From assembly GCA_029974635.1 (NCBI GenBank), contig JARKQY010000044.1:1-64000 (forward strand): DNA of 64,000 bases, written 5' to 3'. Below, one piece after another: positions 4,087 through 60,437 of the stretch (position 1 is its first letter; the number at the start of each line of letters is the position of its first letter). The DNA is from Bacillota bacterium. Its GTDB lineage: Bacteria; Bacillota; UBA4882; UBA8346. Made by a program: the position numbers and the translations under genes. The notes below the pieces were generated by a model. The model saw only the letters and a program-made list of their open reading frames with translations. It made no database searches and was not told where the DNA came from.

Positions 4087-4146
4087 TTGCAAACGGATGA
4101 TGAATATGTTATTATTTTTTAAATCCTATCAATTTGCTATGCTTTT
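4087..4146 (+). promoter_or_regulatory. rrf2-1 promoter with sulfur operator
   Basis: TTGCAA (4087-4092), a 17-base spacer and TATTAT (4110-4115) form the promoter. The operator CCTATCAATTTGCTATG (4125-4141) follows directly and would cover the transcription start. The same site type occurs before the second rrf2 gene and many sulfur genes, which suggests autorepression by this Rrf2 protein. Confidence 0.75.
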
Positions 4147-6213: not shown

Positions 6214-7293
6214 TCACCTCCAGTTTTCCGGGTTTAGCGGATATTGTCCGAATTTCCGGACTGCGTCCCGTAACGCATGAATATTTTCCGGCGGTGTTGG
6301 AACCGGCAGACCGCAACCCAAGGCCAGAATATATCCTTTGGGATTATCATAAGCCTTTCTCAGGCACTCCTTGGCATTGGCCTCCACATCCGCGGGCTTG
6401 CCGAGATACATGGTTTCAGTGGGCTTTACATTTCCGGTCAAAATCACCCGGTGGCCGACTGCAGCCTTAGCCTCCGCCAAATCCACCTGGTTATCGATGC
6501 TCAATATTCCGGCGCCCGTGTCGGCCATCTCTTCCCAGATACTCTTGGTATTTCCGCATATATGTAAGGACGGCACCGGCTTGCGGGCGGTCTTGATGGC
6601 ATCAACCAGCCTTTTTATATACGGTAAGGCAAATTCCTGAAACTGCTTTTTACTGATTAAGCTTCCGGAAGCCGTGGGTTCGGCGATGCTTATCACCACA
6701 TCCAGCTTTGCCGCTTCTTTTACAAAAGCAATGATGCTCTCCACCGCCAACTCCAGCAACCGGTGAGCAAACTCCGGGTTCTTATACAAATCGCGCATGA
6801 ACTTTTCCGTTCCCCGAGTATTCGCCGCAGTCGTAAATGGTCCCGGGACGCCTACCGACACCGGAACTTTATCCCCCAACTCCTCAACCAGTCTTTCACT
6901 TATTTCTAAAATCAGGGGAAGCCTGCCTGCTTTCAGCGGATCCGGTATCGCTAAACGATCCAAATCGGCTAACTCATTGACTGCAAATCTGGATACAAAC
7001 GGAGCGCCCCCTTCGGGAAATCCCAATTCACTGCCGATAGCTTCCGCAATACCACCCAATCCAGGCCCAACACCAGCTGTTTCGGATTGATATGTTTTGT
7101 GGGCGGCAATCTGGGCTGCAACCGCTTTATCAGCCGAGAGGTGCAGTTCTGATACCTTGGCACCGATTAATCCGGCGGCATGATCGCCGATAAATAGATT
7201 ACAGGGAATCCTGTCATATGGTTTTCCATCGAAAAATGCCTGCCATCTTTCTTTGGCTGTCATCTGATCGGCTTTCACATCCGTAATACTCAT
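6214..7293 (-). CDS. uroporphyrinogen decarboxylase-like methyltransferase (MtaA/CmuA type)
   Basis: A 359-residue TIM-barrel protein of the UroD superfamily. It is the MtaA-like branch: HIC near residue 243 and a cysteine in ALGCGLPVPTPPENI near residue 326 match the His-x-Cys...Cys zinc site that activates a thiol in methylcobamide:CoM methyltransferases. True UroD substrate arginines are not evident at the N-terminus. The ribosome site GGAGGTGTTGGG precedes ATG. It sits between yezD and two permeases in the sulfur-regulated nitrogenase-like operon, so a role in moving methyl groups from or to sulfur is plausible. The methyl donor and any corrinoid protein are not encoded nearby. Confidence 0.88.
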   Translation of the reverse strand: MSITDVKADQMTAKERWQAFFDGKPYDRIPCNLFIGDHAAGLIGAKVSELHLSADKAVAAQIAAHKTYQSETAGVGPGLGGIAEAIGSELGFPEGGAPFVSRFAVNELADLDRLAIPDPLKAGRLPLILEISERLVEELGDKVPVSVGVPGPFTTAANTRGTEKFMRDLYKNPEFAHRLLELAVESIIAFVKEAAKLDVVISIAEPTASGSLISKKQFQEFALPYIKRLVDAIKTARKPVPSLHICGNTKSIWEEMADTGAGILSIDNQVDLAEAKAAVGHRVILTGNVKPTETMYLGKPADVEANAKECLRKAYDNPKGYILALGCGLPVPTPPENIHALRDAVRKFGQYPLNPENWR

Positions 7294-7626: not shown

Positions 7627-9144
7627 TCATCCGTTGGATTGAGCGGGGCTGTCATCAATATAGCTAAATGGGTCTTGCTTGTACCAGTCTTCAAAGTATG
7701 GCAAACGGGTATTGGCCGCCAAATTCCGGTTAAAAACCGGGTTTTTCAGGAGCCGTGTCAACCGCCGCGCCAGTTCGAAGACTCCGTTATACCCCATGTA
7801 ATTTACGGTCTGGCCGAAGATGGGATAAACCGGAAATCCTTGTTTGGCCGCCCAGACATTGCCTCCGGTATGCCCCACATAAATGTCGGGCTTCAGCCTT
7901 TCCAGCAAATTGGATTGTTCAAAAGGCTGCCCGGTGGCTACATTAAACAGTACTTCATCGCTGAGATCCAGATCGTTTAGAAAATCATCGCCAAACCCAT
8001 CATAATGGTAACCTTTCAGCCCCACCACTTCCAATCCCAACTCCACTAAAGCGGTGGCATTGGCCAGTACTCGGATCTCTCCCCCGGCTAAAAAAGCCCG
8101 TTTGCCGCGGAGCGCTTCCCGGTATGGAGCCAGTGCCTTTTCCAGTTCCCGGGTCTCAGCTTCAATCAGCCGTTCAACTCTATCTTCAATCGTAAAGAAC
8201 TTGCCGATATCCCGCAGCCATTTATTGGTATTCATGATCCCGATGGGGATAGCCCGCAGGACAAAAGGAATCCCGTATTGGGCTTGTAAATGCCCGACGA
8301 AATAATCATCATGGGTAGCGCAAATACTCACATTAAGCGCCGCTTCAGTGACGGTTTCAAAATCATCCGGATGGGCGTAACATGGCATGAAACGGGCATT
8401 TAGCTCCAGCGCCCTTAACAGCCGGGTCAATTCATCCTCGTCAAAACGGCTCATGGACGAGACGTTCAGGATGTTTACCGTTTTACTGCGCCGGTAGTTT
8501 TCAGCCAACTCTTCCAATTCATCGGGGATGACCCGCTCGTACTCCTCACGCACATCCACCAGGTTTCGTAAGATCCCGTGGTAAACGGCATCATAGGCGC
8601 TAGCCTGGATTTTGGTTTTAAATCCTTCACAATGAACCGGGACGATCTTGGCAGCGACTTCCGCTTGCAGTTGGGCCAATATCCCGTCCAGATCATCACC
8701 GATGAGCGCCGGTACGCAACTGTTAGCCACAATGATGGCACTAGGCCGGAATTCCCGGTCTGCATAAAGTACCGCTTCACGTAGTTTGCTCTCGCCGCCC
8801 TTGATCACATCAGATTCATCCAGATTGGTATTGAGCCAAATCAAGCCAGGCGCCTTGGCATCCCGGAGTTTTTGAAAGTTTTTGGTGAGGCCGGCCATGG
8901 CGGTACTGCCGCCGCCGCAGCCGATGGGCGCATGGATAATAATTACGGCATTCCGAAGGGTATTCAAAATGGCCATACTCAAATTCAATTGGCAGCCCTG
9001 GGTCTGGGCGAAAGTGCGCTTGATCCCGTTTAAGCAACCTTTTCTAGCGCCTTCAGCCAGTTGGCAACAGGAACCTCCGAAAGCATTACAAGCTTTTAAT
9101 CTATCTTCCCGCACCGGCGGGGCCTTTTCCTTGATAAAATCCAT
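7627..9144 (-). CDS. nitrogenase-like component, NifD-like subunit (set 1)
   Basis: A 505-residue member of the nitrogenase alpha family. The three cluster cysteines at the subunit interface are present: TQGCQLNLS, HAPIGCGGG and ANSCVPALIGDD, matching Cys62, Cys88 and Cys154 of Azotobacter NifD. A cysteine in SICATHDDYFVGHL aligns with the FeMo-cofactor ligand Cys275. The cofactor histidine (His442) is not conserved; the region reads GQTVNYMGYNG, with glutamine at the aligned place. It therefore probably binds a nitrogenase-type cofactor in altered form. It is the last structural gene after NifB-, NifH- and NifK-like genes. The best precedent is MarD/MarK of methylthio-alkane reductase; the substrate is not proven. 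Confidence 0.85.
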   Translation of the reverse strand: MDFIKEKAPPVREDRLKACNAFGGSCCQLAEGARKGCLNGIKRTFAQTQGCQLNLSMAILNTLRNAVIIIHAPIGCGGGSTAMAGLTKNFQKLRDAKAPGLIWLNTNLDESDVIKGGESKLREAVLYADREFRPSAIIVANSCVPALIGDDLDGILAQLQAEVAAKIVPVHCEGFKTKIQASAYDAVYHGILRNLVDVREEYERVIPDELEELAENYRRSKTVNILNVSSMSRFDEDELTRLLRALELNARFMPCYAHPDDFETVTEAALNVSICATHDDYFVGHLQAQYGIPFVLRAIPIGIMNTNKWLRDIGKFFTIEDRVERLIEAETRELEKALAPYREALRGKRAFLAGGEIRVLANATALVELGLEVVGLKGYHYDGFGDDFLNDLDLSDEVLFNVATGQPFEQSNLLERLKPDIYVGHTGGNVWAAKQGFPVYPIFGQTVNYMGYNGVFELARRLTRLLKNPVFNRNLAANTRLPYFEDWYKQDPFSYIDDSPAQSNG

Positions 9145-9178
9145 TGGAATGACCTCCTCGTATCTTTGAGTTTCACAA

Positions 9179-10519
9179 CTACCTGCTGCCCACCAAAGTA
9201 CTGAACAAGTCTTCAGCTAACCGTAAGGCGCCCGTATAACCGGCATAAGCCCGGTCCAATACCACCCGGTTGGAGATGGGATAGGTGACACTCAAGTGGG
9301 GCGCCCCCAAACTATCGGCCAGGTCTCTTTCAAAAGCGCTCCCGACGACAAAGGCCGGATTAAATCCATCATAATAACGCTGGTTGCGATTAATGGGCCA
9401 ATGATTGAACAGATGCTTTTTTACGCTGGAAGTATCGCTGTCAAAGACCAGTTTCGGCCGGATGGGAGAGAGGTAGTTGCCAAATCTGGCAGTTACCCGT
9501 TCTTGCTCATTTTCAGTCAGCAGATCCGTCACCACGACCAACTCCGGCAACCATCCCAGATCGTCTGCTAAGAAACGGGTCAAAGCTTGAGCGTAATTGG
9601 AATCTCCGACAACCACCGCATACCGTTGTAAATCCAAATCGTTGTATACATCGGCCAATCTCTCCAGATAGCTGTAAAAATGCTTTTTCTCTTCTTGAAT
9701 CAATCGATTGATAAAAGCCTCCTCAATACCGAGGGCTTTACCGACCGCATTTAGGAATTGCTCGGTTCCGTAAGTTCCAATGGGAAAAGGAACGGTAATA
9801 AAAGGAGTTCCATGTTCCTCCTCAAAGACCCGGGCCGGCTCCACTCCGGCAGTATCGGAGACCACGATATTGAATACCGCTGAAGCGGCATTTTTTAGAT
9901 TATCCAGGGTTTCACCCTCACCGAAGAAGGTATTGACCCGGTAACCCAGCTTTTCCAGCAGCGTCTTTAAAACCTCCAGATTCCCCTTCCAAAAGACATC
10001 CTGAATCGGGACAATTCCCCATAAATTCACCGTTTTTGGATCCTTGGACTGATTTTTGATAACCAATTCGCGAAACAAGAGTTCCAACACAATATCGTAC
10101 CCTTTAAAAGAATTCCCTTTAAAGCCGCCGGTATCGGCAGCCAGAACCGGCGCCCGGTTCCCGGCGAATTTTCTGGCCACCGATTTGGCGTCATCACCAA
10201 TCATCTCCACCATACATCCGGTAACTACCACATATAGATCGCCGTCGACGACTTTTAATGTATTCGCAATCTGTTCGGTAAGACGGCCTTCTCCCCCGAA
10301 AACAATCTCATTTTCATAGACATTGGAACTGGGAAGGGCTTGGCCGGAGCAGTATCCGCTCCCCAGATAACCGGCGGCCCCGTTCAGGGCATTGGCAATA
10401 TTGCCGCCACAACCGGCTGCGGCATGCAAGACGGGAATTACCCGGGGCAGATTAATCAAAGTGCCGATTGCTCCCCCCAAGGCGCAGGTATACCGGGGTC
10501 GATCAACAAATTTACTCAT
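9179..10519 (-). CDS. nitrogenase-like component, NifK-like subunit (set 1)
   Basis: A 446-residue nitrogenase beta-family protein. It opens with RPRYTCALGGAIGTL, followed by HAAAGCGGN and VVTGCMVEMIGDD, the three cysteines expected for the P-cluster side of the interface. It is shorter than NifK of Mo-nitrogenase (about 520) and lacks its N-terminal extension, as do Nfl/Mar and NifE/N proteins. The start at 10519 follows GGAGGAATTG; an upstream in-frame ATG at 10549 lacks a site. It lies 75 bases after the NifH-like gene and 34 before the NifD-like gene. It should form the heterotetramer with that subunit. Confidence 0.85.
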   Translation of the reverse strand: MSKFVDRPRYTCALGGAIGTLINLPRVIPVLHAAAGCGGNIANALNGAAGYLGSGYCSGQALPSSNVYENEIVFGGEGRLTEQIANTLKVVDGDLYVVVTGCMVEMIGDDAKSVARKFAGNRAPVLAADTGGFKGNSFKGYDIVLELLFRELVIKNQSKDPKTVNLWGIVPIQDVFWKGNLEVLKTLLEKLGYRVNTFFGEGETLDNLKNAASAVFNIVVSDTAGVEPARVFEEEHGTPFITVPFPIGTYGTEQFLNAVGKALGIEEAFINRLIQEEKKHFYSYLERLADVYNDLDLQRYAVVVGDSNYAQALTRFLADDLGWLPELVVVTDLLTENEQERVTARFGNYLSPIRPKLVFDSDTSSVKKHLFNHWPINRNQRYYDGFNPAFVVGSAFERDLADSLGAPHLSVTYPISNRVVLDRAYAGYTGALRLAEDLFSTLVGSR

Positions 10520-10594
10520 TTCAATTCCTCCACGACGAAGTTCATTCATTACATAGAAAATTTCACAATGACACCAAAGTCCAGATCAATATAC

Positions 10595-11470
10595 TTAAAT
10601 ACTCGCTGCCGCGCTCCGGACCTCCCCGGTTTCCATGGCCAGCAACTGATCCGCCCATTTGGCGGCCCATTCCCGCAACTCTTGAATATCGAGAGGAGTA
10701 GGGGTTTTGGAATCGGTATGGTTCGCAATCCGCTGGGCTAGATGTTGATAAACTTTGGCCTGCTCCGAGTTGGGCGCAGCCTCTATGGTGGTTTTGCCCT
10801 GCAGTTCGCTCTGGGTCACCGTTACCGAACGGGGTACGTAACCGACGACCTGGGTACTGGTTTGTTTGACAAAATCATCGATGATTTCTTTGGCATAAGG
10901 GGCATTGATGGAATTGGCAATCACACCGCCCAATAACGCGCCGCCGGAGTTTGAATATTTTTGAATTCCTTTAAATAGGTTGTTGGCGGCATAGATGGCC
11001 ATAAAATCAGCTGATGACACGGTAAAAACATGCTCGGCAATGCCTTCCCGGATGGGTACCGCAAATCCGCCGCAAACCACGTCGCCAAGAACGTCGTACA
11101 GTACAAAATCCAGATCCAGTTCATCAAAGACACGGAGTTGTTTCAAAAGCTGGACTGCAGTAATGATTCCCCGGCCCGCACAACCAACCCCCGGAGCCGG
11201 ACCGCCGGCTTCCACGCAATAAACTCCGCCGAAACCTTGAAAGAGCACTTCTTCAGCTTTCACAGTATTTTTTTCACGGAGCGTATCCAGAACGGTCGGT
11301 ATATACTTCCCACCTCGCAATGTATTGGTGGAATCGCTTTTGGGATCGCAGCCGAACTGCATCACTTTGTAGCCGGCCGCTGCTAATGCGGCACTAATAT
11401 TGGAGGTAGTAGTAGACTTTCCGATACCTCCCTTTCCATAAATGGCAATCTGTTTTGTTTTTTTCGACAC
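10595..11470 (-). CDS. NifH-like nitrogenase reductase (Fe protein)
   Basis: A 291-residue P-loop ATPase. The Walker A motif GKGGIGKSTT is near residues 12-21, a switch segment is QFGCDPKSDS, and the two cysteines that bridge one 4Fe-4S cluster in the dimer occur in GVGCAGRGI and DVVCGGFAVPIR. It transfers electrons to the NifD/K-like partner with ATP hydrolysis. The GTG start at 11470 is chosen because GGAGTGACCA precedes it; the longer frame opens with TTG inside the upstream stop. It is the only NifH-like gene in the window, so it may also serve the second NifD/K-like pair at 55-58 kb. Confidence 0.93.
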   Translation of the reverse strand: MSKKTKQIAIYGKGGIGKSTTTSNISAALAAAGYKVMQFGCDPKSDSTNTLRGGKYIPTVLDTLREKNTVKAEEVLFQGFGGVYCVEAGGPAPGVGCAGRGIITAVQLLKQLRVFDELDLDFVLYDVLGDVVCGGFAVPIREGIAEHVFTVSSADFMAIYAANNLFKGIQKYSNSGGALLGGVIANSINAPYAKEIIDDFVKQTSTQVVGYVPRSVTVTQSELQGKTTIEAAPNSEQAKVYQHLAQRIANHTDSKTPTPLDIQELREWAAKWADQLLAMETGEVRSAAASI

Positions 11471-11499
11471 ACTGGTCACTCCTTTTTGAAATTTAAAAC

Positions 11500-12387
11500 T
11501 CAACCATGCGAAAACGTATTGAGTGGTTGGTCATATAGCTTTTCGGCAAGATCTAAACCTTTACCGGGAATGCCACAAGCGTCCGCCCGACAATGCCGGC
11601 AATGACGAAATACGGTTAAATGTTTTTCCGCCGCCTCCCGGGCCAAATTCAGCTGGTGGCAGGTTGGCGCCGCATGTTCCTGCAATTCGTGCTGGGGTAT
11701 CAAGGGAATAATGTTAAACAAGGAAGCTCCCCTATCGGCGGTTGTTTGGGCGATATGACCCACGTGATGGTCATTGACGCCCGGAATCAATACGGTATTA
11801 ACCTTGACCACCGCTCCCAGGGAAACTATGCGGCGAATACCGTCCAGTTGAGCGGCGATGAGAATACGGGCGGCATTAATTCCGGTTAAATATTGATCAT
11901 GATAATGAATATAAGAACAAATATCCGGCAAAATATTTTCATCCACGGCGTTCACCGTCACCGTTACGGTTTTGACCCCAGCCGCGATGATTCGTTCCGC
12001 TTTTTCCGCCAAAAGCAAACCATTGGTACTCAAACAATTCGTTAAACTTGGAAACCGATGATGAATCGCTTCAAATGCTTCCAAGGCGTCATCGGTGGCT
12101 AAAGTATCCCCAGGGCCGGCGATGCCGGCCACAGTGATTTCCGGGCAAAGCTCCAGAGCCTGGGCAACCTTTTCAACGGCTTCCGTAGGAGTTAAGAGCC
12201 CCCGGCTCACCCCCGGCCGGTTCTCCCATTTATTAAAACCTCTTTTGCAGAAACGGCATTGAATATTACAAGCCGGACTGACTGGAAGATGAATTCTGCC
12301 GTATTTGAAATGAGCATCCCCATTGAAACAAGGATGTTGTTTGATGAGGTGATGAAACGTTTCTCTATTTTCCAACGGTTGAGACAT
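11500..12387 (-). CDS. NifB-like radical SAM cofactor synthase
   Basis: A 295-residue radical SAM protein. HPCFNGDAHFKYGRIHLPV and CNIQCRFCKRGFNKWENRPG carry the CxxxCxxC site for the SAM-binding cluster, and the C-terminal CRHCRADACGIPGKG supplies ligands of the additional clusters fused in NifB. There is no NifX-like tail. NifB makes the carbide-containing 8Fe-9S core of nitrogenase cofactors, so its presence implies the NifD/K-like enzyme carries such a core. ATG 12387 follows AGGCAGGTG. It is the first gene of the operon, behind a promoter with a sulfur-type operator. Radical SAM proteins of similar length could act elsewhere, but the NifB signature is distinct. Confidence 0.92.
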   Translation of the reverse strand: MSQPLENRETFHHLIKQHPCFNGDAHFKYGRIHLPVSPACNIQCRFCKRGFNKWENRPGVSRGLLTPTEAVEKVAQALELCPEITVAGIAGPGDTLATDDALEAFEAIHHRFPSLTNCLSTNGLLLAEKAERIIAAGVKTVTVTVNAVDENILPDICSYIHYHDQYLTGINAARILIAAQLDGIRRIVSLGAVVKVNTVLIPGVNDHHVGHIAQTTADRGASLFNIIPLIPQHELQEHAAPTCHQLNLAREAAEKHLTVFRHCRHCRADACGIPGKGLDLAEKLYDQPLNTFSHG

Positions 12388-12450
12388 AATTATCACCTGC
12401 CTAAGAATAAAAATTAATTAAACCACTCTGTTTACTGGGTTATTAGTCAT

Positions 12451-12478: not shown

Positions 12479-12520
12479 GATACCATCCCTACAACAATTT
12501 GACCATTTTTAATTCCATAA

Positions 12521-12578
12521 ATTCCTATAAACTTAGTAGGTTATCTAATATAATACGCTTCCAACCACCATTTGTCAA
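12521..12578 (-). promoter_or_regulatory. promoter and sulfur operator of the nitrogenase-like operon
   Basis: Minus strand: TTGACA (12578-12573), 17-base spacer, TATTAT (12555-12550). The operator CCTATAAACTTAGTAGG (12524-12540, read on the plus strand) starts ten bases after the -10 box. Nearly the same 17-mer lies in the same place in the cysK promoter, so the two should share a repressor. Confidence 0.85.
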
Positions 12579-18803: not shown

Positions 18804-19940
18804 TTAGCCAAAAAGCGACAACAAGATGCCCGCCGCGACGGCGGATCCGATTACACCGGCCACATTCGGCCCCATGGCGTGCATAAGCAGGAAGTTGGAA
18901 GGATTGGCCTTTTGTCCTTCCACCTGAGATACCCGCGCTGCCATCGGGACTGCGGATACTCCCGCGGAACCGATCAAGGGATTGATTTTTCCACCGGAGA
19001 TCCAGCACATGAGTTTTCCGAAAAACAATCCGCCGATGGTGCTGAATATGAAAGCCAGCAATCCCAGCCCGATAATTTTGAGCGTCTCCGGTCGTAAAAA
19101 ATTTTCGGCGACAGCGGTGGCGCCAACCGTAATTCCCAGAAAAATGGTGACGATGTTAATCAAAGCGTTTTGGACGGTATTTGACAAACGCTCCACCACA
19201 CCGGATTCTTTGAATAAATTGCCCAGCATCAGCATGCCGATGAGAGGAGCGACCGACGGCAACAGCAATATGCAAAAAATGGAAACCACCACTGGAAAGC
19301 ATACTTTCTCCAACTTGGATACTTCACGCAACTGGGTCATCTTGATTGCACGCTCTTTTTTGGTGGTGAGCGCCCGCATCAACGGAGGCTGAATCAACGG
19401 GATCAACGCCATATAAGAATAAGCGGCGATAGCGATAGCCGGAAGCAAGTGAGGAGACAGCTTTGAAGTCAGGTAAATTGCAGTGGGACCGTCCGCGCCG
19501 CCGATAATACCGATAGATGCCGCTTCCTGAGGGGAAAATCCCAGCGCTACCGCAATCACAAAGGCGATGCAGATTCCCAACTGCGCGCTGGCACCTAAGA
19601 ATAAGCTTGACGGCCGGGCAATTAAAGGTCCGAAATCGGTCATGGCCCCGATGCCCAAAAAGATAAGGGATGGATAAATTCCTTTTTTTACACCTAAATA
19701 TAAATAATAAAGCAGACCGCCTGAATCGGAAGAGTTTAACGGCTCAGCCATCAATCCGGTTAACGGCAGATTCGCCAGCAGCACTCCAAAGGCTATCGGC
19801 AGCAGCAGTAGCGGCTCGAATTTTTTTACGATGGCGAGATAAATCAGAGCACATGCTACTGCAATCATCACGAAATGTTGCCATGTTAATAAGGCAAAAC
19901 CTGAAGTCTCCCAGATTGTTTGTATAGCATCGATAAACAT
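18804..19940 (-). CDS. oadB: Na+-translocating decarboxylase beta subunit
   Basis: A 378-residue membrane protein of the OadB/GcdB/MmdB family with about nine helices. GFSPQEAASIGIIGGADGPTAIY carries the conserved Asp of the sodium site, and NFLLMHAMGPNVAGVIGSAVAAGI is the family's C-terminal signature. It removes CO2 from carboxybiotin while exporting Na+. It lies 12 bases behind the gamma/biotin gene and forms a three-gene operon with the alpha subunit. AAAGGAGCG precedes ATG. Confidence 0.93.
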   Translation of the reverse strand: MFIDAIQTIWETSGFALLTWQHFVMIAVACALIYLAIVKKFEPLLLLPIAFGVLLANLPLTGLMAEPLNSSDSGGLLYYLYLGVKKGIYPSLIFLGIGAMTDFGPLIARPSSLFLGASAQLGICIAFVIAVALGFSPQEAASIGIIGGADGPTAIYLTSKLSPHLLPAIAIAAYSYMALIPLIQPPLMRALTTKKERAIKMTQLREVSKLEKVCFPVVVSIFCILLLPSVAPLIGMLMLGNLFKESGVVERLSNTVQNALINIVTIFLGITVGATAVAENFLRPETLKIIGLGLLAFIFSTIGGLFFGKLMCWISGGKINPLIGSAGVSAVPMAARVSQVEGQKANPSNFLLMHAMGPNVAGVIGSAVAAGILLSLFG

Positions 19941-19952
19941 ACTATCGCTCCT

Positions 19953-20693
19953 TTACTTTATAGTTATCAGCACATCACCAGTGGCCACGGATGATCCTTT
20001 GGCGACCAGCACCTGGGCGATAACGCCATTGACTGGCGCAGCCACCTCGTTTTCCATTTTCATCGCTTCCAAAATGAGAAGCACCTCCCCTTGATTCACG
20101 CTTTTTCCGGGTTGGACCTTAATATCGGTAATAGTTCCCGGCATGGGAGACTTGACGCTGTGGCTACCTGAAACGGAAACAGAAGCAGTATTGGCAGTAA
20201 CGGCCGGAGATGGCGAAGGGGGAACAGCGGCCGGGAAAGGAGCGGCCTTTTCCGTAGTTTTGATGATATTCGCCTGGCCTTTTTCCACTTCTACCTCATA
20301 CTCTGTGGCGTTGATCTTGACAAGATATATCATGACATTCTCTCCTATCGGTGTTAATTTTTCTCCTGCCCCGGGCTTGAGTCGAATGGATTTAAAGCAT
20401 AACTCCGATATCGGGATACCCGATTCATCGCTGACAATGGCCATGATGATCGCGGCCGTGGGCTCGTCAACATCTTTCAATGTGAGCATTCCCGCTGAGA
20501 AATCCCCAAGATTCGCTTCAACGACGGTTGCCCCATCCCGCTGGACGGGAACCGCCGCTGATTTCCGATCTTTACCGCCCAATACGCCAATCCCCAGAGA
20601 CAATAGCTTGATGAGGCCACAAACACAGGCAAGCAAGATAAATACCATTGCTATGCAAAAAAACGCAATTGGAAGGCTTTCAAGCACCGTCAT
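19953..20693 (-). CDS. decarboxylase gamma subunit fused to biotin carrier domain
   Basis: A 246-residue protein. The N-terminus has one membrane helix (LESLPIAFFCIAMVFILLAC) as in OadG. A middle segment of about 60 residues is unlike the usual linker. The C-terminus is a biotinyl domain with LILEAMKMENEVAAP, where the lysine is biotinylated. The fusion replaces the biotin domain usually at the end of OadA, and tethers the carrier to the membrane between the transferase (alpha) and pump (beta). Its start overlaps the alpha stop by four bases (ATGA). Confidence 0.9.
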   Translation of the reverse strand: MTVLESLPIAFFCIAMVFILLACVCGLIKLLSLGIGVLGGKDRKSAAVPVQRDGATVVEANLGDFSAGMLTLKDVDEPTAAIIMAIVSDESGIPISELCFKSIRLKPGAGEKLTPIGENVMIYLVKINATEYEVEVEKGQANIIKTTEKAAPFPAAVPPSPSPAVTANTASVSVSGSHSVKSPMPGTITDIKVQPGKSVNQGEVLLILEAMKMENEVAAPVNGVIAQVLVAKGSSVATGDVLITIK

Positions 20694-22081
20694 CCGATCT
20701 CCTCCCGCTTCTTCATAATGGTATAAGTCACAGTTCTCCGCTCCCTTTCCTCCCTGTCCTTGAAAAATTTCTCGGCAATCTGAGGAAAAGCGATGTAGGA
20801 GAGAACGTCTTCATCATTTCGCGCCAGGCTGCCGATTCGCTGTTTGTTCTCCTCAAAGGCAGGCGCCAGTGTATCCGCAAAACGCATGTTCATCGGCTTT
20901 TCATCTCCCAGCACTTTCCGGATCAGTTCTTCATCCACCGCTCCGGGCGCCTGGCCGTATTCACCTTTTAAATATGATTTTACCTCTTTGGATACATTAC
21001 GGTAGCGCTCACCAGCCAGCACATTGGCTGCGGCCTGAACGCCAACCATCTGGCTCATAGGGGTAACCAGCGGCGGATAACCCAAATCCTTCCTGACGTG
21101 GGGAATTTCAGCCAGCACTTCCTCCAGTTTATCGATGGCGTTTTGCGCCTTAAGCTGGGCTAAAAGGTTCGACAGCATGCCGCCCGGAACCTGATAGACC
21201 AAGGCATCGGTTTCCGTCCCCATCACGAAAGCATCCATCAATCCCGCAGCAATATATTTCGCTTTTAACGGCTTAAAGAAATCATTAATCTCTTTCAGAA
21301 CTTTTTCATCCAATCCGGTTGTATGGCCCATTTGCCGCAAGGCATAATGAAGCGTCTCCGTAGCAGGCTGGGAGGTGCCGCCGGAAAAAGAGGATATGGC
21401 AGTATCGATCCCGTCACATCCGGCTTCGATGGCTTTCATATAGGTAATGGGCGCTAGCCCCGTGGTAGAATGGGTATGCAGGAATACGGAGAGCTTCACG
21501 CTTTTCTTTAACGCCACTACCAGATCATACGCCTCCCGGGGCCCCATGATCCCGGCCATATCCTTGATACATATGGAATTGACTCCCATACCTTCAAGAT
21601 GTTTGCCCATGGCGGCATATTTCTCCAGATTATGGATGGGACTGGTGGTGTAACAGATGCATCCCTGGGCGTGAGCACCTTGCTTCAATGTTTCATCTAC
21701 GGCAACTTCAATGTTCCGAAAATCATTAAGGGCGTCAAAGATACGGAAGATATCCATCCCGTTCCGGGCGGCGTGGGCCACGAATTTTCGGACGACATCA
21801 TCGGGATAATGCTTATAACCGAGGATATTTTGCCCTCGCAATAACATTTGCAGCTTGGTATTTTTCACTTTGGCCTTGATTTTCCGCAGCCTTTCCCAGG
21901 GGTCTTCACTGAGATAACGCAGACAGGAATCGAAAGTAGCGCCTCCCCAGCACTCCAGAGAGTAATAACCGGCTCCGTCCAACTTTTCCAGTATTTCTGC
22001 AAAATCGGCGAAAGGCATCCGGGTGGCAATAAGCGATTGATTCGCATCGCGCAATACCGTTTCCGTAAAATTCAATTTCAT
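20690..22081 (-). CDS. oadA: oxaloacetate decarboxylase alpha subunit (carboxyltransferase)
   Basis: A 463-residue biotin-dependent carboxyltransferase. TVLRDANQSLIATRM opens the TIM barrel, SICIKDMAGIMGP holds the carboxybiotin-reacting lysine, and HTHSTTGLAP supplies the metal-binding histidines. The PYC/OADA conserved domain follows. It stops before any biotin domain, which is encoded in the next gene. The start at 22081 follows GAAAGGAGC. Together with the gamma and beta genes it would decarboxylate oxaloacetate and pump Na+. Pyruvate carboxylase subunit B is related, but the OadB partner favours the decarboxylase. Confidence 0.92.
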   Translation of the reverse strand: MKLNFTETVLRDANQSLIATRMPFADFAEILEKLDGAGYYSLECWGGATFDSCLRYLSEDPWERLRKIKAKVKNTKLQMLLRGQNILGYKHYPDDVVRKFVAHAARNGMDIFRIFDALNDFRNIEVAVDETLKQGAHAQGCICYTTSPIHNLEKYAAMGKHLEGMGVNSICIKDMAGIMGPREAYDLVVALKKSVKLSVFLHTHSTTGLAPITYMKAIEAGCDGIDTAISSFSGGTSQPATETLHYALRQMGHTTGLDEKVLKEINDFFKPLKAKYIAAGLMDAFVMGTETDALVYQVPGGMLSNLLAQLKAQNAIDKLEEVLAEIPHVRKDLGYPPLVTPMSQMVGVQAAANVLAGERYRNVSKEVKSYLKGEYGQAPGAVDEELIRKVLGDEKPMNMRFADTLAPAFEENKQRIGSLARNDEDVLSYIAFPQIAEKFFKDREERERRTVTYTIMKKREEIG

Positions 22082-22105
22082 GTCTATACCAGCTCCTTTC
22101 ATTAA

Positions 22106-22264
22106 GTTTGCTTTGGAACCAAAATAAGAAGGGCGGAGCTCTTCTCATGAAGCTCTCCACCCTTAAGCTCGATACTTGAAAGCAGTTACCTGCCCAACCG
22201 GATAAGAAATTATGATATTCAATTAAATCAAAGACATTATATCATCATCGCAAGCAGAAATCAA
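22106..22264 (-). promoter_or_regulatory. oadA promoter and hairpin leader
   Basis: Minus strand: TTGATT (22264-22259), 17-base spacer, TATAAT (22241-22236). The untranslated leader then holds CCGGTTGGGCAGGTAACTGC and a strong stem AAGGGTGGAG/CTCCGCCCTT followed by CTTATTTT just before the ribosome site. This looks like an attenuator. No known riboswitch class was recognised in the part upstream of the stem. Confidence 0.65.
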
Positions 22265-53896: not shown

Positions 53897-54367
53897 TTAT
53901 GCTCCTGTATCTATTTTTAGGATCATATCAGTTCCTGAATCAACAAAGCCAAGTTTTCGATATAATGGTCTCCCCGCCTCCGAAGCATGCAACCGCATTA
54001 CGGTGTAGCCCTTTTCCCGGGCGATCTCAATCATTTTGCGGACCAGTATCGCCGCCAATCCTCTGCGGCGATACGCGGGCATGGTATACATGCTGGTCAG
54101 ATAAGCCACTTTTCCGGTGAGATTGATGAATGACGGGGGTAAATCATAGAAACATAACCCGCTGATGGCCACTATCGTTTCCGCTTCCACAGCCACCCAG
54201 GAAATATAACGCTCAGTCCGGATATTCTCTCTGAAATACCGGGTCATTTCCCGGGCAATGTTTTCAAGTCCATATTTTTGCGGTGTGTATCCTTCATCAT
54301 ACAGCTGCTTGATTCTTAATTGCACCAGGATTTCGATATCCGCTTCCGTAGCTTTACGAATTGTCAT
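53897..54367 (-). CDS. GNAT family N-acetyltransferase
   Basis: A 156-residue acetyltransferase. MTIRKATEADIEILVQLR starts the fold, and YTMPAYRRRGLAAILVRKMIEIAREKGYTVMRLHAS is the acetyl-CoA-binding RxxGxA segment, ending with PLYRKLGFVDSGTDMILKI. The acceptor is unknown. No operon partner. Confidence 0.93.
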   Translation of the reverse strand: MTIRKATEADIEILVQLRIKQLYDEGYTPQKYGLENIAREMTRYFRENIRTERYISWVAVEAETIVAISGLCFYDLPPSFINLTGKVAYLTSMYTMPAYRRRGLAAILVRKMIEIAREKGYTVMRLHASEAGRPLYRKLGFVDSGTDMILKIDTGA

Positions 54368-54455: not shown

Positions 54456-55052
54456 TTATTTATCCTTTATATTGCGTTTCCCGCCTGCAATTTGATCCGC
54501 AGTATCTTTGATGAATTGCACCAGGGTTTCCTTGGTCCGGATATCATCGCCGGGTCCCACGCCCAGGGCGCGGATGGGATATATTTCAGTAAAGCCGAGG
54601 CGGCCGAAGATCCGGGTATACTTGATAATAATATCTTCGAACGCTTTTCCGTCCGGATTTCCTTGCGGCAGAATAAATACTAGTTTTTTCCCCGACGCCA
54701 AACGGCTCGGGTTGGGATTGGTTTTGTAATCCGGGCTATAATACGAATAGAACCGGTCGATCAATCCTTTGGTTTGGGCGGTGATGTCTCCGAAATAAAC
54801 CGGTGAAGCGATGAGCACCAGATCCGCCAGCTGGATCTCTTCCAGCACCTGGCTCAAGTCGTCCTTGACAATGCATTTATCGGACGTTGTCTTACAGGCC
54901 ATGCATCCCTGACAGCCGCGATAGTTAAGTTTGTTCAATCCAAATGTCTTGACTTGGGTCTCCGTTTTTCCTAAACTTTCAAGTAACACCTGGGTGATGG
55001 TAGCGCTATTCCCTCCAGAACGCGGGCTACCAATTACGTTGACAATTTTCAT
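54456..55052 (-). CDS. NADPH-dependent FMN reductase / flavodoxin-like protein
   Basis: A 198-residue flavoprotein. VIGSPRSGGNSATITQVLL binds FMN phosphate, and YRGCQGCMACKTTSDKCIVKDDL is a CxxCxxC insert typical of iron-sulfur flavoproteins. LVLIASPVYFGDITAQTKGLIDRFY continues the flavodoxin fold. The start at 55052 follows AGGAGGAG. It lies 130 bases downstream of the second NifK-like gene and could be an electron donor to that enzyme. Confidence 0.9.
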   Translation of the reverse strand: MKIVNVIGSPRSGGNSATITQVLLESLGKTETQVKTFGLNKLNYRGCQGCMACKTTSDKCIVKDDLSQVLEEIQLADLVLIASPVYFGDITAQTKGLIDRFYSYYSPDYKTNPNPSRLASGKKLVFILPQGNPDGKAFEDIIIKYTRIFGRLGFTEIYPIRALGVGPGDDIRTKETLVQFIKDTADQIAGGKRNIKDK

Positions 55053-55181: not shown

Positions 55182-56480
55182 TCAATTAAATCGCGTCAAT
55201 ACGACGGAATAGATATCTTCCAGTAGTTTAAGACCGCCATGATACCCCACATACGATCCGTTGATGACCAACCGTTCAATGATGGGCCATGAAATCGTCA
55301 GATAGTGGGCTTTCAAATCCCTGACCAGCTTTTTCTCCCAGGAACTGCCGAGAATTAAAGGATAGCCATGAAAATCGGTATTGCGGATTTCCTCTTGGAG
55401 CTGCTGCCCGTCACTGGAAAATCCCACTTCGGCTTGGATACCGTGATTTAATTCTTTAAAATATTCCCGTACCGCTTCCTGATGCTCCACCGGAGTATCA
55501 TCGGTCACATATTGTTTGGCTGGGAACAAGCCTAGATCATTCACCAGGAATTTGGTGAAAGCCAGCGCGTATTGGGCATCCGAAACCACTACGAACCGTT
55601 TGGCCATCACCCGGGTTTCCAGAAAGATATCGGCAAAGCGTTCGATATAGTAATAGTATTCGGCTTCATGTCTGGCAACAACCGCTTCCGTGACCCCGGG
55701 ATCGACACCGGCAAAGGCGCCCGCCGCCCGTAAAAACTTGCTGGTCTCAGATGCGCCCACCGGCATGGTGGGATAGTGGAGATACGGTGTGCCGAACTGT
55801 TCCTGTAAAAGCCGGACACTGCTCAAGCCGACCCAGGGGGATACCAGCAGGTTAAATTCAGCCGCCGTTATTTTGGCGATATTGGCTATCCCCCGGTCAT
55901 GCCCAAAGATAGTATTGGGAGTTAAACCAAGTTCCGCAACCAACCTTTCCAATTCCCGCAAATTGCCTAACCAGAACGGATCATGCATAGGAAGCCCCGC
56001 CCAGATATTTACCAGCCCTTTGATTTTATCAGGAACGGGTTTGAGATATTGTTCAATGAGCGCTTGCAGTACCCATTCATGACCTAAATAGTTGTTCCCT
56101 TTAAACCCCGGGATTGAGGCAAAGATTACCGGCTTGGCGGCATTTTGAAAGGTCCTAATAATCTCCGCTGAGTCATCTCCCACAATTTCCGGGGTACATC
56201 CGGTCAATACCACATATAAATCAGCGTCCACCACTTTAAGGGCATTTGCCACGGTCTCTTGCAAACGGCTTTCGCCGCCAAAAATGACTTCTTTTTCGCT
56301 AATATTGGTACAAGGAAAGATATGCGGCGAAAAATAACCGGAACTCCCGATGCTGCCACCGAGCTTTTCCGCGCAACCCGGACCGGCATGTAAAATCGGT
56401 AATGCCCGGGTAATCGCCTGTACTGTTTGCATTGCCGCCATTGCGCATTTATAGCGGGGTTGATCTAATATTTTTGCCAT
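55182..56480 (-). CDS. nitrogenase-like component, NifK-like subunit (set 2)
   Basis: A 432-residue nitrogenase beta-family protein. RYKCAMAAMQTV, HAGPGCAEKLGG and LTGCTPEIVGDDSAEII carry the three interface cysteines. It is similar in plan to the set 1 NifK-like protein but clearly diverged. Its ATG is one base after the NifD-like stop. No sulfur operator was found before this set. The likely electron source is the NifH-like protein of set 1 or one encoded outside the window. Confidence 0.82.
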   Translation of the reverse strand: MAKILDQPRYKCAMAAMQTVQAITRALPILHAGPGCAEKLGGSIGSSGYFSPHIFPCTNISEKEVIFGGESRLQETVANALKVVDADLYVVLTGCTPEIVGDDSAEIIRTFQNAAKPVIFASIPGFKGNNYLGHEWVLQALIEQYLKPVPDKIKGLVNIWAGLPMHDPFWLGNLRELERLVAELGLTPNTIFGHDRGIANIAKITAAEFNLLVSPWVGLSSVRLLQEQFGTPYLHYPTMPVGASETSKFLRAAGAFAGVDPGVTEAVVARHEAEYYYYIERFADIFLETRVMAKRFVVVSDAQYALAFTKFLVNDLGLFPAKQYVTDDTPVEHQEAVREYFKELNHGIQAEVGFSSDGQQLQEEIRNTDFHGYPLILGSSWEKKLVRDLKAHYLTISWPIIERLVINGSYVGYHGGLKLLEDIYSVVLTRFN

Positions 56481-56481
56481 T

Positions 56482-57948
56482 TTATCGGGTCGGCTCCTTC
56501 AAGAAAGTTGCATTTGCCTGTTGATACCACCACTTGGTATAGGGAAGCTTTACCCGGGCGGCCAGGTTCGTTTCAAAACTGCGGTTTTTGAGCTTATCCA
56601 GCACCGCATAGGCAAAGTTCAAAGTCCCTTTATAACCAAAGATCATATATTCATCAGCCACATATACGGATGGAATTCCTTGTTTGATGGCCCAGACCGT
56701 CGTTCCTGGATGACGCGAAAAGTAAAGGTCCGGCTGATAATGGTTTAAAATGTTTAATATTTCAAAATTCTGCTGATCAGCCACACTCAGTTTAAAATTA
56801 GCGGGGGAGTTTTTTACTAAGTAATTCAGTGCAGGCGGAGTTTGATCATTATCATATTTCCGGTCGTAATGCCAGGCCGCTCCCCAAACCACTTCCATCC
56901 CCAGCTCTTGCAGCACCCGGGAAACTTCAAAGGTATAGCCCGGACCCATTCCAATCACGGCCCGCAGTCCGGTTAATTCTTTTTTGACCGCTTCAATTTG
57001 CGGCAGATAAATAGCCCTTTCTTTGGCCAGATAAGCCTCCACTTCCGCCTGTTTATGGATAACCCGGCCAATCTCCCGCAACCAGGTTTCAAATCCGGTG
57101 ACCCCCAAGGGGTTGATGGTGCGGACGTAAGGAACGCCATATTGTTCTTCCAGGGCGTTTCCCAAATAAGTACCTAAAGTCCCGCAGATGCAGACCGTGG
57201 CCAGGGATTCCGATATATGAGCCAGTTCCTCCACGGTTGAATTTTGATATAAAAATTGGGTTTTTACTCCGAAATTGGCAAAGAGTTCGGTAATCTCCAC
57301 CCGGGCGCTTTCGAAGAAGTTCTTGAAATTAAGCACCGGTTTCTTCTGTTGCGGCGGCTTAACGATGCTGGTCATGACCGCATGGTCCGCCGCATCAAAG
57401 CCGGAGGCCCAGATCCGCGATTTAAAACCTTCACAGTGAACGGCAGCAATGGGAACGGGTAATTCGGCCTCGAGTTCCGCGACGATACTGTCCACATCTT
57501 CACCGATGATCCCGGTTACACAGGAGGTGCCGATGAAAATGGCTTGGGGATGATAGCGCCGGTAGGTTTCCCGGATGATCTCCTTGAGGCTGCCGGTGGC
57601 GCCAAAAACCGTATCCTGTTCGTTCATATCGGTCCCCACAAATACCGTATTATTCGCAACACCAATTTTCGCGGCCAGTTGGGAATTTAAAACATCCACC
57701 CCGGGGGCCATTGCCGTGCACCCGGAAGGAGCATGATTGATAACCGCCACATCCCTGATACCGCTTACCTGGCCCAGGGCGCAACCCGAAAGACAAGTGC
57801 TCGACTGACTGAAACAACGCTCCCGATCCTGTAAGCTCCCGCAGCGGGACTGATGGACCAGGTCCTGCAGGTCTCCATTGTATCCTGTAATGGAACCCAA
57901 ACGGGTTTCCCGAGTACCGGCTGTGGTCTCGGTTAAATTAATTGGCAT
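56482..57948 (-). CDS. nitrogenase-like component, NifD-like subunit (set 2)
   Basis: A 488-residue alpha-family protein. CLSGCALGQVSGI, HAPSGCTAMAPG and GTSCVTGIIGED carry the interface cysteines, and CICGTLGTYLGNALEEQYG aligns its second cysteine with the cofactor ligand Cys275 of NifD. The cofactor histidine is again missing (ADEYMIFGYKG). An N-terminal extension with CGSLQDRERC is present. AGGAGGAATC precedes the start. It lies 30 bases after the remnant of an MFS transporter. The set has no own NifB or NifH. Confidence 0.82.
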   Translation of the reverse strand: MPINLTETTAGTRETRLGSITGYNGDLQDLVHQSRCGSLQDRERCFSQSSTCLSGCALGQVSGIRDVAVINHAPSGCTAMAPGVDVLNSQLAAKIGVANNTVFVGTDMNEQDTVFGATGSLKEIIRETYRRYHPQAIFIGTSCVTGIIGEDVDSIVAELEAELPVPIAAVHCEGFKSRIWASGFDAADHAVMTSIVKPPQQKKPVLNFKNFFESARVEITELFANFGVKTQFLYQNSTVEELAHISESLATVCICGTLGTYLGNALEEQYGVPYVRTINPLGVTGFETWLREIGRVIHKQAEVEAYLAKERAIYLPQIEAVKKELTGLRAVIGMGPGYTFEVSRVLQELGMEVVWGAAWHYDRKYDNDQTPPALNYLVKNSPANFKLSVADQQNFEILNILNHYQPDLYFSRHPGTTVWAIKQGIPSVYVADEYMIFGYKGTLNFAYAVLDKLKNRSFETNLAARVKLPYTKWWYQQANATFLKEPTR

Positions 57949-57979: not shown

Positions 57980-58864
57980 TTAGCATATTTTTGTTTCGGG
58001 CAATCTTTGTTCAATACTTAAATGGCCACTTGTTAACAAATCAACCTTTATTGACGGTACCGCTGTCATTTGATCATCCAAAATAAACGGCTTGGATTCA
58101 ATTACTTTCTTTTGTCCGGAGATTTTAACCGCCAGCCCCGCGGCTACAAAACAGATGAATCCCGTAGCCAAAAACGTTATTTGATAACTACCGAAAACAC
58201 CATGCAAGGCGCCGCCTCCATAGGCCGTCAATTCCGATATCACCAGGCTGGTTCCGCATAAAGATCAAAACCGGCGCAATAAATGCCATGATGGTAATGG
58301 ATATTGCCCGGACCGCGATTTGCCAATCATAGATATGCAGCAACCATGAGAATATCGGCAAAATAACCAGTTGCCCCATAGACCCGGCGGTGCACATGAT
58401 CCCGATTACCATCCCCCGGTGTTTCACAAACCAGCATTCGGTCACCACTGTTCCAAATACGGTGGATAAAAGGCCGCTTCCTATCCCGACAATAATACCC
58501 CAGTATAAATCCATTTCCCAGGGCGCGTTCATCCAGGTTGACAGGCCGGTGCCGGCGGCCAGTAATAATAACGCCAAGGTCGTGATCCGCCGTATTCCGT
58601 ATGATTGCATCAACACTGCGGCGAAAGGAGCGTAAAACCCATATAGAAAAAGATTGATGGCGAGGGCAAATGAGATCGCCGCCCGGTTCCAGCCAAAAAA
58701 ACCCTCCCAGGATGTAATCAACGCTCCAGGCAATGGAACGAACCCCCGCCGCCGACAGCAAAGCGAAAAATGAACGCCAATACCACCCAACTATAATGGA
58801 TGGGAACCTTAGGGACCTTATAACGCAAAAATTTTACGGGCGCTGAATTCTTCAGGCAGTTCAT
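57980..58864 (-). pseudogene. MFS transporter, frameshifted and internally deleted
   Basis: ATG 58864 opens IHYSWVVLAFIF, then the frame shifts to SAAGVRSI and again to GALITSWEGFFGWNRAAISF. Helices 2-6 follow up to VLIFMRNQPGDIG. The text then jumps in another frame to HGVFGSYQITFLATGFICF, the last helix region, so about 150-200 residues are missing. It resembles oxalate/formate-antiporter-like MFS proteins. It cannot work as read. It lies between DUF1638 and the second nitrogenase-like set. Confidence 0.8.
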
Positions 58865-59613
58865 TATGAAACTCCTTTTGATACGCCGCTTGAGTCTAAA
58901 GACAAAAACAGCATCTCATCCACGGCTCCTCCCGGAGCAATGTTGATAAAATCCGGTTCAATATAAGGCCCTTTGACAATCTTCTGAACATAATCCCTGC
59001 CGCCCATGATTTCCTGATGACTTAATTTCAGCAGTTCCGCTATTTCCATTGATCGGGCTAAAGATTCACTTTCCTTGGGATTGCCGGTATGAATAAACAA
59101 AACTCTTCGATAGCCGTCATACATTCTGGTTAAAATGCCGGCGGCTTTTGCTGCGCCATACTTGTTACAGATCCGTTGATAATCGGATAGAATTGAGCGG
59201 TCGGGCGCGCACTCGCGAATGATTTTCATCCCCTCGATCCAGCCGTGGGTATGATACAAAGTGCCTTTTTCTTCCCGCCGAATTTCCGCAAACCGCTCTT
59301 GTGATCCCAGCAGAATCGGTATACAATCATGAACCCGGGGAATGGTCAGGGTAAAACCAGCCGCTTTTAAATTGCGGGCCGCGCCGCCGCACAACCCGAA
59401 GGCTAGAACCACCCGTTCACTTCCCCGTGATTCATCCAGCAATTTTTGTAACTCATTACCCAGTTTCTCCGGATAAGTATGCAATCCCATGGAAACAAAC
59501 TGAAACTCTACCGCGTCGGCGGGAGCAACCGCCAGCAACTCTTCCTTCATGACCTCGCAAGCAATGATTCTGACCGTCATTTTTTCCGCTTTGGCCGCAT
59601 TCTCTTCCGTCAA
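58864..59613 (-). CDS. DUF1638 protein
   Basis: A 249-residue protein. IIACEVMKEELLAVAP, VLAFGLCGGAARNL, RVHDCIPILLGSQERF and YHTHGWIEGMKII fit DUF1638, whose function is unknown; it is often near corrinoid methyltransferase genes in anaerobes. The likely start is TTG 59613, which shares TTGA with the methyltransferase stop; ATG 59580 is an alternative. Its stop overlaps the start of the broken MFS gene. Confidence 0.85.
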   Translation of the reverse strand: MTEENAAKAEKMTVRIIACEVMKEELLAVAPADAVEFQFVSMGLHTYPEKLGNELQKLLDESRGSERVVLAFGLCGGAARNLKAAGFTLTIPRVHDCIPILLGSQERFAEIRREEKGTLYHTHGWIEGMKIIRECAPDRSILSDYQRICNKYGAAKAAGILTRMYDGYRRVLFIHTGNPKESESLARSMEIAELLKLSHQEIMGGRDYVQKIVKGPYIEPDFINIAPGGAVDEMLFLSLDSSGVSKGVS

Positions 59614-60437
59614 CCGTGTTCGCTCCGTTTTTGGGCGATGGCGAATATGGTATGGCGGTCGAACTGGATTCCATCTTTCGTCCGGCCTTTGTTGATCTCG
59701 GACTCGATATCCGCCTTGGCTTGCTCGCGCAATGACTCGGGAACATGGCTCAAATAATTCCCGAATGAACTGGCCTCATGGTGTTTGATGAGATCTTCGG
59801 CCGTCGCGTGAGATCCGGTGATCTTTTTTACCTGGATGTTTTCTACGGTAAATCCGGCCTGCGTCAATAATTGAATCAGTTCGGTGGCAGTTAATCCATG
59901 CTTTTTCAAAGTCGCATCTTCGGTTTTTACGACCGCCGCGTATGGCTCCCGTTTCAGCACGCTATCCGTAATCTGCTGGATTTCGGAAAAACTATTCAGT
60001 TCCTTGGCGCCGGTGGTGATCCCCACCCGGCCGCCCGGCTTGAGTACCCTGAATATCTCCCGTAAAGCGGTTACCTTATCAGTCACCCAATGGAAAACCG
60101 CGCTCAAATATGCTACATCGATGCTGTTATCCGCTATGGAACCAAGGTCTTCAGCGGATCCGATTTTATATACCGCATTTGAATGCTCATTCTTCTCATT
60201 GGCGATCCGGATTCGCTCCGCCAAAGGGTCAATGCCGATCAAACTGCCGGATGTCCCGATGATTTCCACTACATACCGCCCCAGCCTGCCAGTACCGCAC
60301 CCGATATCCAATACCGTAGCGCCGGACTTTACTTCCAATTCTCCAACCAAGGTAGAGCCGTTATGGAATTGGGAGTCGCTAATTTCATCATAAGTTTTAG
60401 CCAAAACCTCATTATCGAGGGTAAGATGAACCGTCAT
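59610..60437 (-). CDS. class I SAM-dependent methyltransferase
   Basis: A 275-residue methyltransferase. VLDIGCGTGRLGRYVVE is motif I, LIGIDPLAERI motif II, and REIFRVLKPGGRVGITTG motif IV/post-motif. The region after residue 180 (LTQAGFTVENIQVKK) is typical of the arsenite/UbiE-like group. The acceptor is unknown. AAAAGGAGC precedes ATG, and it is coupled to the DUF1638 gene. Confidence 0.92.
   Translation of the reverse strand: MTVHLTLDNEVLAKTYDEISDSQFHNGSTLVGELEVKSGATVLDIGCGTGRLGRYVVEIIGTSGSLIGIDPLAERIRIANEKNEHSNAVYKIGSAEDLGSIADNSIDVAYLSAVFHWVTDKVTALREIFRVLKPGGRVGITTGAKELNSFSEIQQITDSVLKREPYAAVVKTEDATLKKHGLTATELIQLLTQAGFTVENIQVKKITGSHATAEDLIKHHEASSFGNYLSHVPESLREQAKADIESEINKGRTKDGIQFDRHTIFAIAQKRSEHG

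Follow-up and report, generated by a model that had tools for sequence, protein, structure and literature searches.

A nitrogenase-like DK pair from a clade sister to Mar as the probable catalytic part of a C–S bond reductase on a sulfur island

A pair of NifD/NifK-like genes, here called pair B, probably encodes the catalytic DK part of a nitrogenase-like C–S bond reductase that serves sulfur salvage with the help of the MarH-like Fe protein (H) and the NifB-like enzyme (B) of another gene set, set 1, located 43 kb away; we put the probability of this reading at about two in three. Mar stands for methylthio-alkane reductase, which converts methylthio-alkanes into methanethiol and hydrocarbon. 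Pair B lies in the window, the 64-kb stretch of DNA analysed here, which runs from the start of a 136-kb contig in a Bacillota genome that is 88% complete. The reading draws on the fold, ligands, tree position and gene linkage of the pair and on the shortage of H and B genes, all of which were observed directly. Pair B and its neighbours are arranged as follows.

53897..54367, minus strand: acetyltransferase-like ORF (GNAT by eye), 156 aa, downstream of the flavodoxin-like gene
54456..55052, minus strand: flavodoxin-like or NADPH-FMN reductase-like protein with a CxxC motif, 198 aa (PF02525/PF03358), ATG at 55052 with its own Shine-Dalgarno sequence
55182..56480, minus strand: K subunit (NflK, MarK-related), 432 aa, PF00148, best PDB match MarK, three P-cluster cysteines
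56482..57948, minus strand: D subunit (NflD, MarD-related), putative cluster-binding catalytic subunit, 488 aa, PF00148, best PDB match MarD
57980..58790, minus strand: broken MFS transporter remnant, frame interrupted (ORFs 57980-58243 and 58188-58790)
58864..59613, minus strand: DUF1638 protein upstream of pair B (PF07796, 131 bits)
59610..60437, minus strand: SAM-dependent methyltransferase upstream of pair B (PF08241)

The D and K genes are separated by a single base (TAA-A-ATG), and GGAGG precedes D. PF00148 covers both proteins end to end, with 246.5 bits for D and 232.7 bits for K against a cut-off of 28.6. When aligned with MarD and MarK, the D subunit keeps the P-cluster cysteines as C52, C77 and C143 (MarD C66, C91 and C158) and the cofactor cysteine as C255 (MarD C270), and the K subunit keeps its three as C12, C36 and C95 (MarK C32, C56 and C121). 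A first-pass annotation of this DNA had described a probably functional NifD/NifK-like pair that retains all interface and cofactor cysteines, has no NifH or NifB alongside, and sits beside a CxxC flavodoxin-like gene, DUF1638, a methyltransferase and a dead MFS transporter. The ORFs, Pfam matches and alignments agree with this description, and the intact frames and ligands, together with the purifying selection described below, support a probably working enzyme. Its count stands only in part: pair B is the second pair on the contig, but the contig holds five, three of them beyond the window.

Compared with an ortholog 83% identical in protein sequence, the D gene is changed at 16% of first, 7% of second and 53% of third codon positions. 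This third-position bias indicates that D is under purifying selection, despite the broken gene upstream. If pair B were decaying along with that MFS gene, whose remnant is 52% identical over 172 aa to a longer ORF of Sporomusa silvacetica, the absence here of the usual partner genes and operator would fit, but both frames and the full set of ligands are intact, the ribosome sites are good and comparison with orthologs shows a strong third-position bias, which makes decay highly improbable.

The flavodoxin-like gene is probably co-transcribed with pair B and its product might be an electron donor; a homolog occurs at just one of the related loci. The acetyltransferase-like ORF gave no NCBIfam match and has a homolog in one related locus, homologs of the DUF1638 gene are absent from the other loci of related pairs, and the methyltransferase gene is likewise not conserved with the pair. 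Because the flavodoxin-like, DUF1638 and methyltransferase genes do not travel with the pair, they were left out of the assignment of function.

Both subunits find their closest structural relatives in Mar. The best PDB match of D is MarD (9fmg, E 2e-102; next best 1e-32) and that of K is MarK (9d9u_C, E 1e-113; next best 4e-18), with identities of 37–40%, and a predicted AlphaFold structure of D (mean pLDDT 79) also returned MarD first (9fmg_A, TM 0.83, 37% identity). Nitrogenase lies far behind. We then placed the pair in trees; the CfbD and Bch families were judged by profile score only. In a tree of 130 D proteins, pair B D falls in a clade of 56 rows (SH-aLRT 99) from Clostridium, Sporomusa, Pelosinus, Lachnospiraceae, Ruminococcus-type bacteria and Treponema. 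Adjoining this clade are pair C of the same contig and proteins from Bacteroidota, Geobacter and Myxococcales. All belong to a Mar-like group of 100 rows (support 100), with R. rubrum MarD and pair E on its other side. Of the two pairs in the window, pair B lies inside this group and pair A outside it, as does pair D. The K tree agrees on the placement of the pair B clade, and MarD and MarK are excluded from the grouping that contains pair B in both trees (D, 78 rows, SH-aLRT 99; K, 69 rows, 99). The pair B clade is thus a sister of Mar and lies outside it. It is apparently undescribed in the literature covered, which did not extend to preprints and subscription papers.

Known families were also compared by profile. 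Pair B stays far below cut-off with every curated model for nif, vnf, anf, bch and cfbD. For CfbD, the one known family that had been named as a possible home for the pair, K reached 39.0 bits and D 43.7 against 268.4, and pair B consists of two different subunits rather than a single-subunit homodimer. DPOR and COR were ruled out by model scores and ligands, and NifEN by TIGR01283/TIGR01285, with 148 of 505 bits for D (nifE) and 34 of 327 for K (nifN). NifEN, NifDK and VnfDK resemble pair B in overall fold, P-cluster cysteines and cofactor cysteine, but they sit on a far-off branch; pair B lacks NifD H442 and the homocitrate-site residues, and its NCBIfam scores are far below the cut-offs (163 of 486, 148 of 505). 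The isethionate reductase IsrBHDK of R. capsulatus, with its own radical SAM enzyme and an Ssu-type transporter, offers a precedent for nitrogenase-like C–S cleavage in sulfur assimilation, the role proposed here for pair B; IsrD, however, has one of the three P-cluster cysteines and no cofactor Cys/His (PMC11423573), whereas pair B keeps all three P-cluster cysteines and the cofactor cysteine, and Isr was rejected as its identity.

In MarD the [Fe8S9C] cluster is held by C270 and H429, and the R428-H429 pair has been proposed as a hallmark of Mar (Lago-Maciel et al., PMC12552129). In MarD numbering, C66, C91, C158, C270, R428, H429, F199 and H375 are kept in 56/56 D proteins of the pair B clade and W195 in 55/56; Gln74 is also kept, and the three P-cluster cysteines are present in 126/126 K proteins. 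The loop residues of pair B itself are Arg412-His413. Pair B thus resembles R. rubrum MarDK (North 2020, Lago-Maciel 2025; PDB 9fmg, 9d9u) in fold, P-cluster cysteines, Cys270, the Arg428-His429 loop, Trp195, Phe199 and His375, as well as in having a MarH-like H and a NifB-like B in the genome and a sulfur-gene setting. It differs in that MarDK has its own MarB and MarH in the operon and pair B has neither beside it. The pocket differs too: of the residues near the cluster of Mar, C73 is replaced by G, S or N and H194 by I or V throughout the clade, and N430 is replaced by P. Retained ligands combined with changed pocket residues point to a Mar-type cluster site with an altered pocket, and because C73, H194 and N430 are replaced, the Mar reaction is not simply transferable to the clade.

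These residues also bear on nitrogen fixation. Pair B belongs to the nitrogenase superfamily, and for Endomicrobium and Heliophilum a group IV pair has been put forward as the nitrogenase (PMC9147875). Nonetheless, V70, Q191, H195 and H442 of nitrogenase are not kept (PMC12552129), their positions in pair B being occupied by Gly/Gln, Trp, Phe and the loop His, Mar does not reduce N2 (PMC12552129), and nifHDKENB and a Vnf/Anf-type set are already present in the genome; that pair B is an alternative nitrogenase is extremely unlikely.

We looked at which H and B proteins are available to pair B. The genome contains 16 PF00148 genes. Contig C6 carries nifDKEN, contig C44 a Vnf/Anf-type DK, and the contig of the window five pairs, namely A (7627-10549), B, C and D (70.4–76.7 kb) and E (95.6–98.5 kb). 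There are three NifH and three NifB-like genes, one of each on C6, on C44 and in set 1. Four of the five contig pairs, among them B, thus lack both an H and a B gene of their own, and a genome-wide search of the 88% complete genome found no dedicated H or B for pair B. The sole H on the contig belongs to set 1, which is laid out as follows.

7627..9144, minus strand: pair A (set 1) D subunit, of a different clade, without the Arg before the loop His
9179..10549, minus strand: pair A (set 1) K subunit, of a different clade
10595..11503, minus strand: MarH-like Fe protein (H) of set 1, sole H of the contig and proposed shared electron donor
11500..12396, minus strand: NifB-like radical SAM enzyme of set 1 (TIGR01290, 270 bits), proposed shared source of the [Fe8S9C] cluster
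12516..12545, minus strand: operator-like palindrome upstream of set 1, ATAACCTACTAAGTTTATAGGA

The H of set 1 scores 505 bits to MarH of 9fmg as opposed to about 295 to NifH, and is 80% identical to R. rubrum MarH. The first-pass annotation had held that H and B must be borrowed, from set 1 or elsewhere; with three NifH genes genome-wide, none of them pair-specific, and a MarH-like H in set 1, this idea is supported. Given the absence of its own H in an 88% complete genome, pair B most likely shares the MarH-like H of set 1 and, equally, most likely its NifB-like enzyme. A single H for several pairs is not without precedent: in Heliophilum fasciatum, five NflDK go with one NflH (PMC9147875), and nine pairs are reported for Syntrophobotulus (PMC3464626). 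Like the contig of the window, H. fasciatum carries five group IV DK pairs (NflDK1-5) on a single H and B (PMC9147875); unlike the genome of pair B, which has nif and an alternative set, it has no canonical nitrogenase.

The relatives of pair B use more than one kind of Fe protein. In Clostridium aminobutyricum, the closest relative with a complete operon (D 80% identical to pair B D), the operon H is MarH-like and 80% identical to the H of the window. In contrast to MarDK, however, other relatives are paired with a NifH-like protein: clade members from gut and rumen have a linked H that is 72% identical to the NifH of the pair B genome and 51% to the H of the window. Among isolates, C. aminobutyricum has a MarH-type H only, and in each of three Treponema the one H present is of the NifH type; these types come from scores and, for an H within a fetched locus, from a tree. 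The clade therefore works with two Fe-protein lineages. No single dedicated nifH always accompanies the pair; about half of the related loci have a linked H, drawn from the two lineages. The nitrogenase NifH on C6, rather than the H of set 1, could accordingly donate electrons to a C–S reductase, as the linked NifH-like proteins of the gut and rumen relatives would allow, but the MarH-like H in the C. aminobutyricum operon and the one on the same contig as pair B make this improbable. In this genome, the most probable partner is the MarH-like H encoded in set 1, with the NifH of C6 as the alternative.

The contig of the window is a sulfur island. It carries several MetY, CysK, sulfate activation and PAPS-reductase-type genes as well as sulfate, methionine and Ssu-type ABC transporters (the unprofiled ones in both groups were read by eye). 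The same contig has a SAM riboswitch (L024:4140-4266, minus strand, 79 bits) preceding a MetA-like gene (L024:3139-4101). Elsewhere in the window, a match to the sodium riboswitch RF03071 at 22151-22199 (minus strand, 41.3 bits, gathering 40.5) lies just upstream of 20690-22102, which heads an apparent sodium-pumping decarboxylase operon (18804-22102). Two genes for URO-D/MtaA-like methyltransferases flank pairs A and D (window 6214-7293 and L023:16803-17831); taken together with genes for a corrinoid protein and a RamA-like activator that follow at some distance, they are similar to the type 1 mlp clusters described by Kountz and Balskus (PMC10418091).

Part of this island shares a palindrome, ATAACCTACTAAGTTTATAGGATTT, found upstream of set 1 and of both cysK genes and, in weaker form, near cysP, metY, metN, two Rrf2 regulator genes and pair E (window 12516, 18691, 37739, 25282, 23682 and 40703; L024:2681 and 18725). 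The motif was built from those same sites, so the scores there are not independent evidence. More informative is the negative result near pair B, where the best site scored 10.1, no better than a shuffled window (best 14.8), in keeping with the earlier remark that the pair has no visible sulfur operator. Rrf2-family regulator genes at 4097 and 25330, near palindrome sites, suggest a CymR-like sulfur regulon.

To see what accompanies the clade elsewhere, we scanned 84,980 genomes and obtained 80 loci; the counts that follow cover 55 loci of the pair B clade and are raw and uncorrected for relatedness. K lies directly downstream of D in 48/55. Within 8 kb are cysK (33 loci), nifX (31), nifH (31) and nifB (27), and cysK is directly upstream of D in 23. 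A polar amino-acid ABC permease occurs within 8 kb in 26/55 clade loci versus 0/37 of the C, E, Bacteroidota/Geobacter, Mar and A/D types; the best NCBIfam match of its binding protein is cystine-binding (95 bits, below cut-off). LysR and PatB C-S lyase genes are also found near clade members, and metY is present in 14/55. Two Clostridium operons are preceded by a SAM riboswitch, at a distance of 135 bases in C. acidisoli and 119 in C. akagii; their continuous same-strand run reads transporter-M20-transporter-D2-K-D-K-nifB. Around pair B in the window, the usual cysK and ABC neighbours are missing.

Dos Santos et al. (PMC3464626) had already reported a cysteine synthase or MetY next to nitrogenase-like genes in which Cys275 is retained, and group IV nifDK with cysteine synthase has been reported in a termite spirochete (PMC13067680). 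Against a link to sulfur salvage, cysK beside the pair could instead provide cysteine for Fe-S clusters; in a tree, the copies beside D showed no clean split as a new subfamily. In five genomes, a divergent tRNA-Cys(GCA)-like gene lies between cysK and the nifB-like gene of the clade's gene cassette (L077:2462-2533, L079:6511-6582, L082:5428-5500, L133:1502-1571, L134:1502-1574); an ordinary tRNA-Cys is encoded separately in four of the five. At L078:8978-9047, a degenerate copy with an altered anticodon precedes nifH. One clade D (64.5% identity) is on a 382-kb plasmid of Treponema saccharophilum (NZ_AP025290.1:339100-340551).

The neighbourhoods help to decide whether pair B is just another Mar, a spare copy with the R. 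rubrum Mar substrates dimethyl sulfide and 2-methylthioethanol. Its ligands are the same, its identity to MarD/MarK is 37–40%, and metY is found in those 14 clade loci. Yet pair B belongs to a separate, well-supported clade with pocket differences at C73 and H194, and, unlike MarDK, this clade is linked to cysK and amino-acid ABC transporters, which dominate its neighbourhood where metY does not. Pair E, next to metY and with C73 kept, is a better Mar candidate in the same genome. A spare Mar is thus unlikely.

They also bear on whether pair B could be a NifEN-like scaffold on which the cofactor of set 1 or of other pairs is matured, a role the first-pass annotation had raised for set 1. Several Clostridium operons hold two DK pairs with nifB and nifX (and nifH in one), and Dos Santos 2012 proposed a scaffold role for linked pairs (PMC3464626). 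Against this, the clade pair is the sole PF00148 pair in 13/39 further genomes, where it usually sits in a self-contained nifB-nifX-nifH-(cysK)-D-K cassette (incompleteness of MAGs weakens single genomes of this kind, not the 13/39 pattern), the Mar-type Arg-His loop (R428-H429), present in 56/56, is absent in NifE, and Mar itself works with the [Fe8S9C] cluster as such and needs no EN step (PMC12552129). We therefore regard a scaffold as very unlikely, and the suggestion for set 1 is not supported. Of the roles suggested at first pass, that of a second reductase acting on another substrate fits best. In Clostridium and relatives (L051, L054, L055, L058, L061, L065), a second, different pair (D2-K) lies directly upstream of the clade pair in one operon; its D2 lacks R428, H375 and the Mar-type loop His (H429), and D2-K is possibly a partner enzyme.

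Taking pair B as the catalytic part of a C–S reductase, we propose the following scheme for sulfur salvage under anoxic conditions. The NifB-like enzyme of the contig would make the [Fe8S9C] cluster, which D would bind through C255 and the Arg412-His413 loop. The single MarH-like Fe protein of the contig, common to the other pairs, would deliver electrons with ATP via the D/K P-cluster, a thioether or thiol substrate would be cut reductively, and the released thiol or sulfide would be captured by CysK or MetY, both encoded on the same contig. From the transporter and cysK links, our guess, at clearly less than even odds, is that the substrate is an S-substituted amino acid rather than a volatile thioether. 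There is a hint of an S-alkylcysteine route (N-acetylation, M20 deacetylation) in the M20 and acetyltransferase-like genes of the window and in two Clostridium operons, but it remains just a lead because M20 is within 8 kb in only 3/55 loci. The S-alkylcysteine salvage of B. subtilis (scm/ytn/yha, PMC12757645) shares an amino-acid transporter, an M20 deacetylase and a GNAT-like protein with some clade members; unlike the clade, it employs an O2-dependent monooxygenase or lyase.

Several pairs per H and the cysK link are already published; the definition of the clade and its pairing with two Fe-protein lineages are new. A broader and doubtful, though possible, reading is that the clade is a new nitrogenase-family reductase of S-substituted cysteine-like amino acids that feeds cysteine synthesis in anaerobes, its catalytic part having been re-paired in evolution with MarH-like and NifH-like Fe proteins. 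Group IV nitrogenase-like enzymes are abundant in anaerobes, and the reaction is known for just a few. The Fe proteins of these sulfur systems, that of the window included, exceed NCBI's nifH cut-off, so that nifH surveys can miscount such bacteria as nitrogen fixers. The pair B clade has many members in Clostridium, Sporomusa, Treponema and rumen bacteria, and its intact complex-cluster ligands and consistent cysteine/methionine gene setting make its substrate directly testable.
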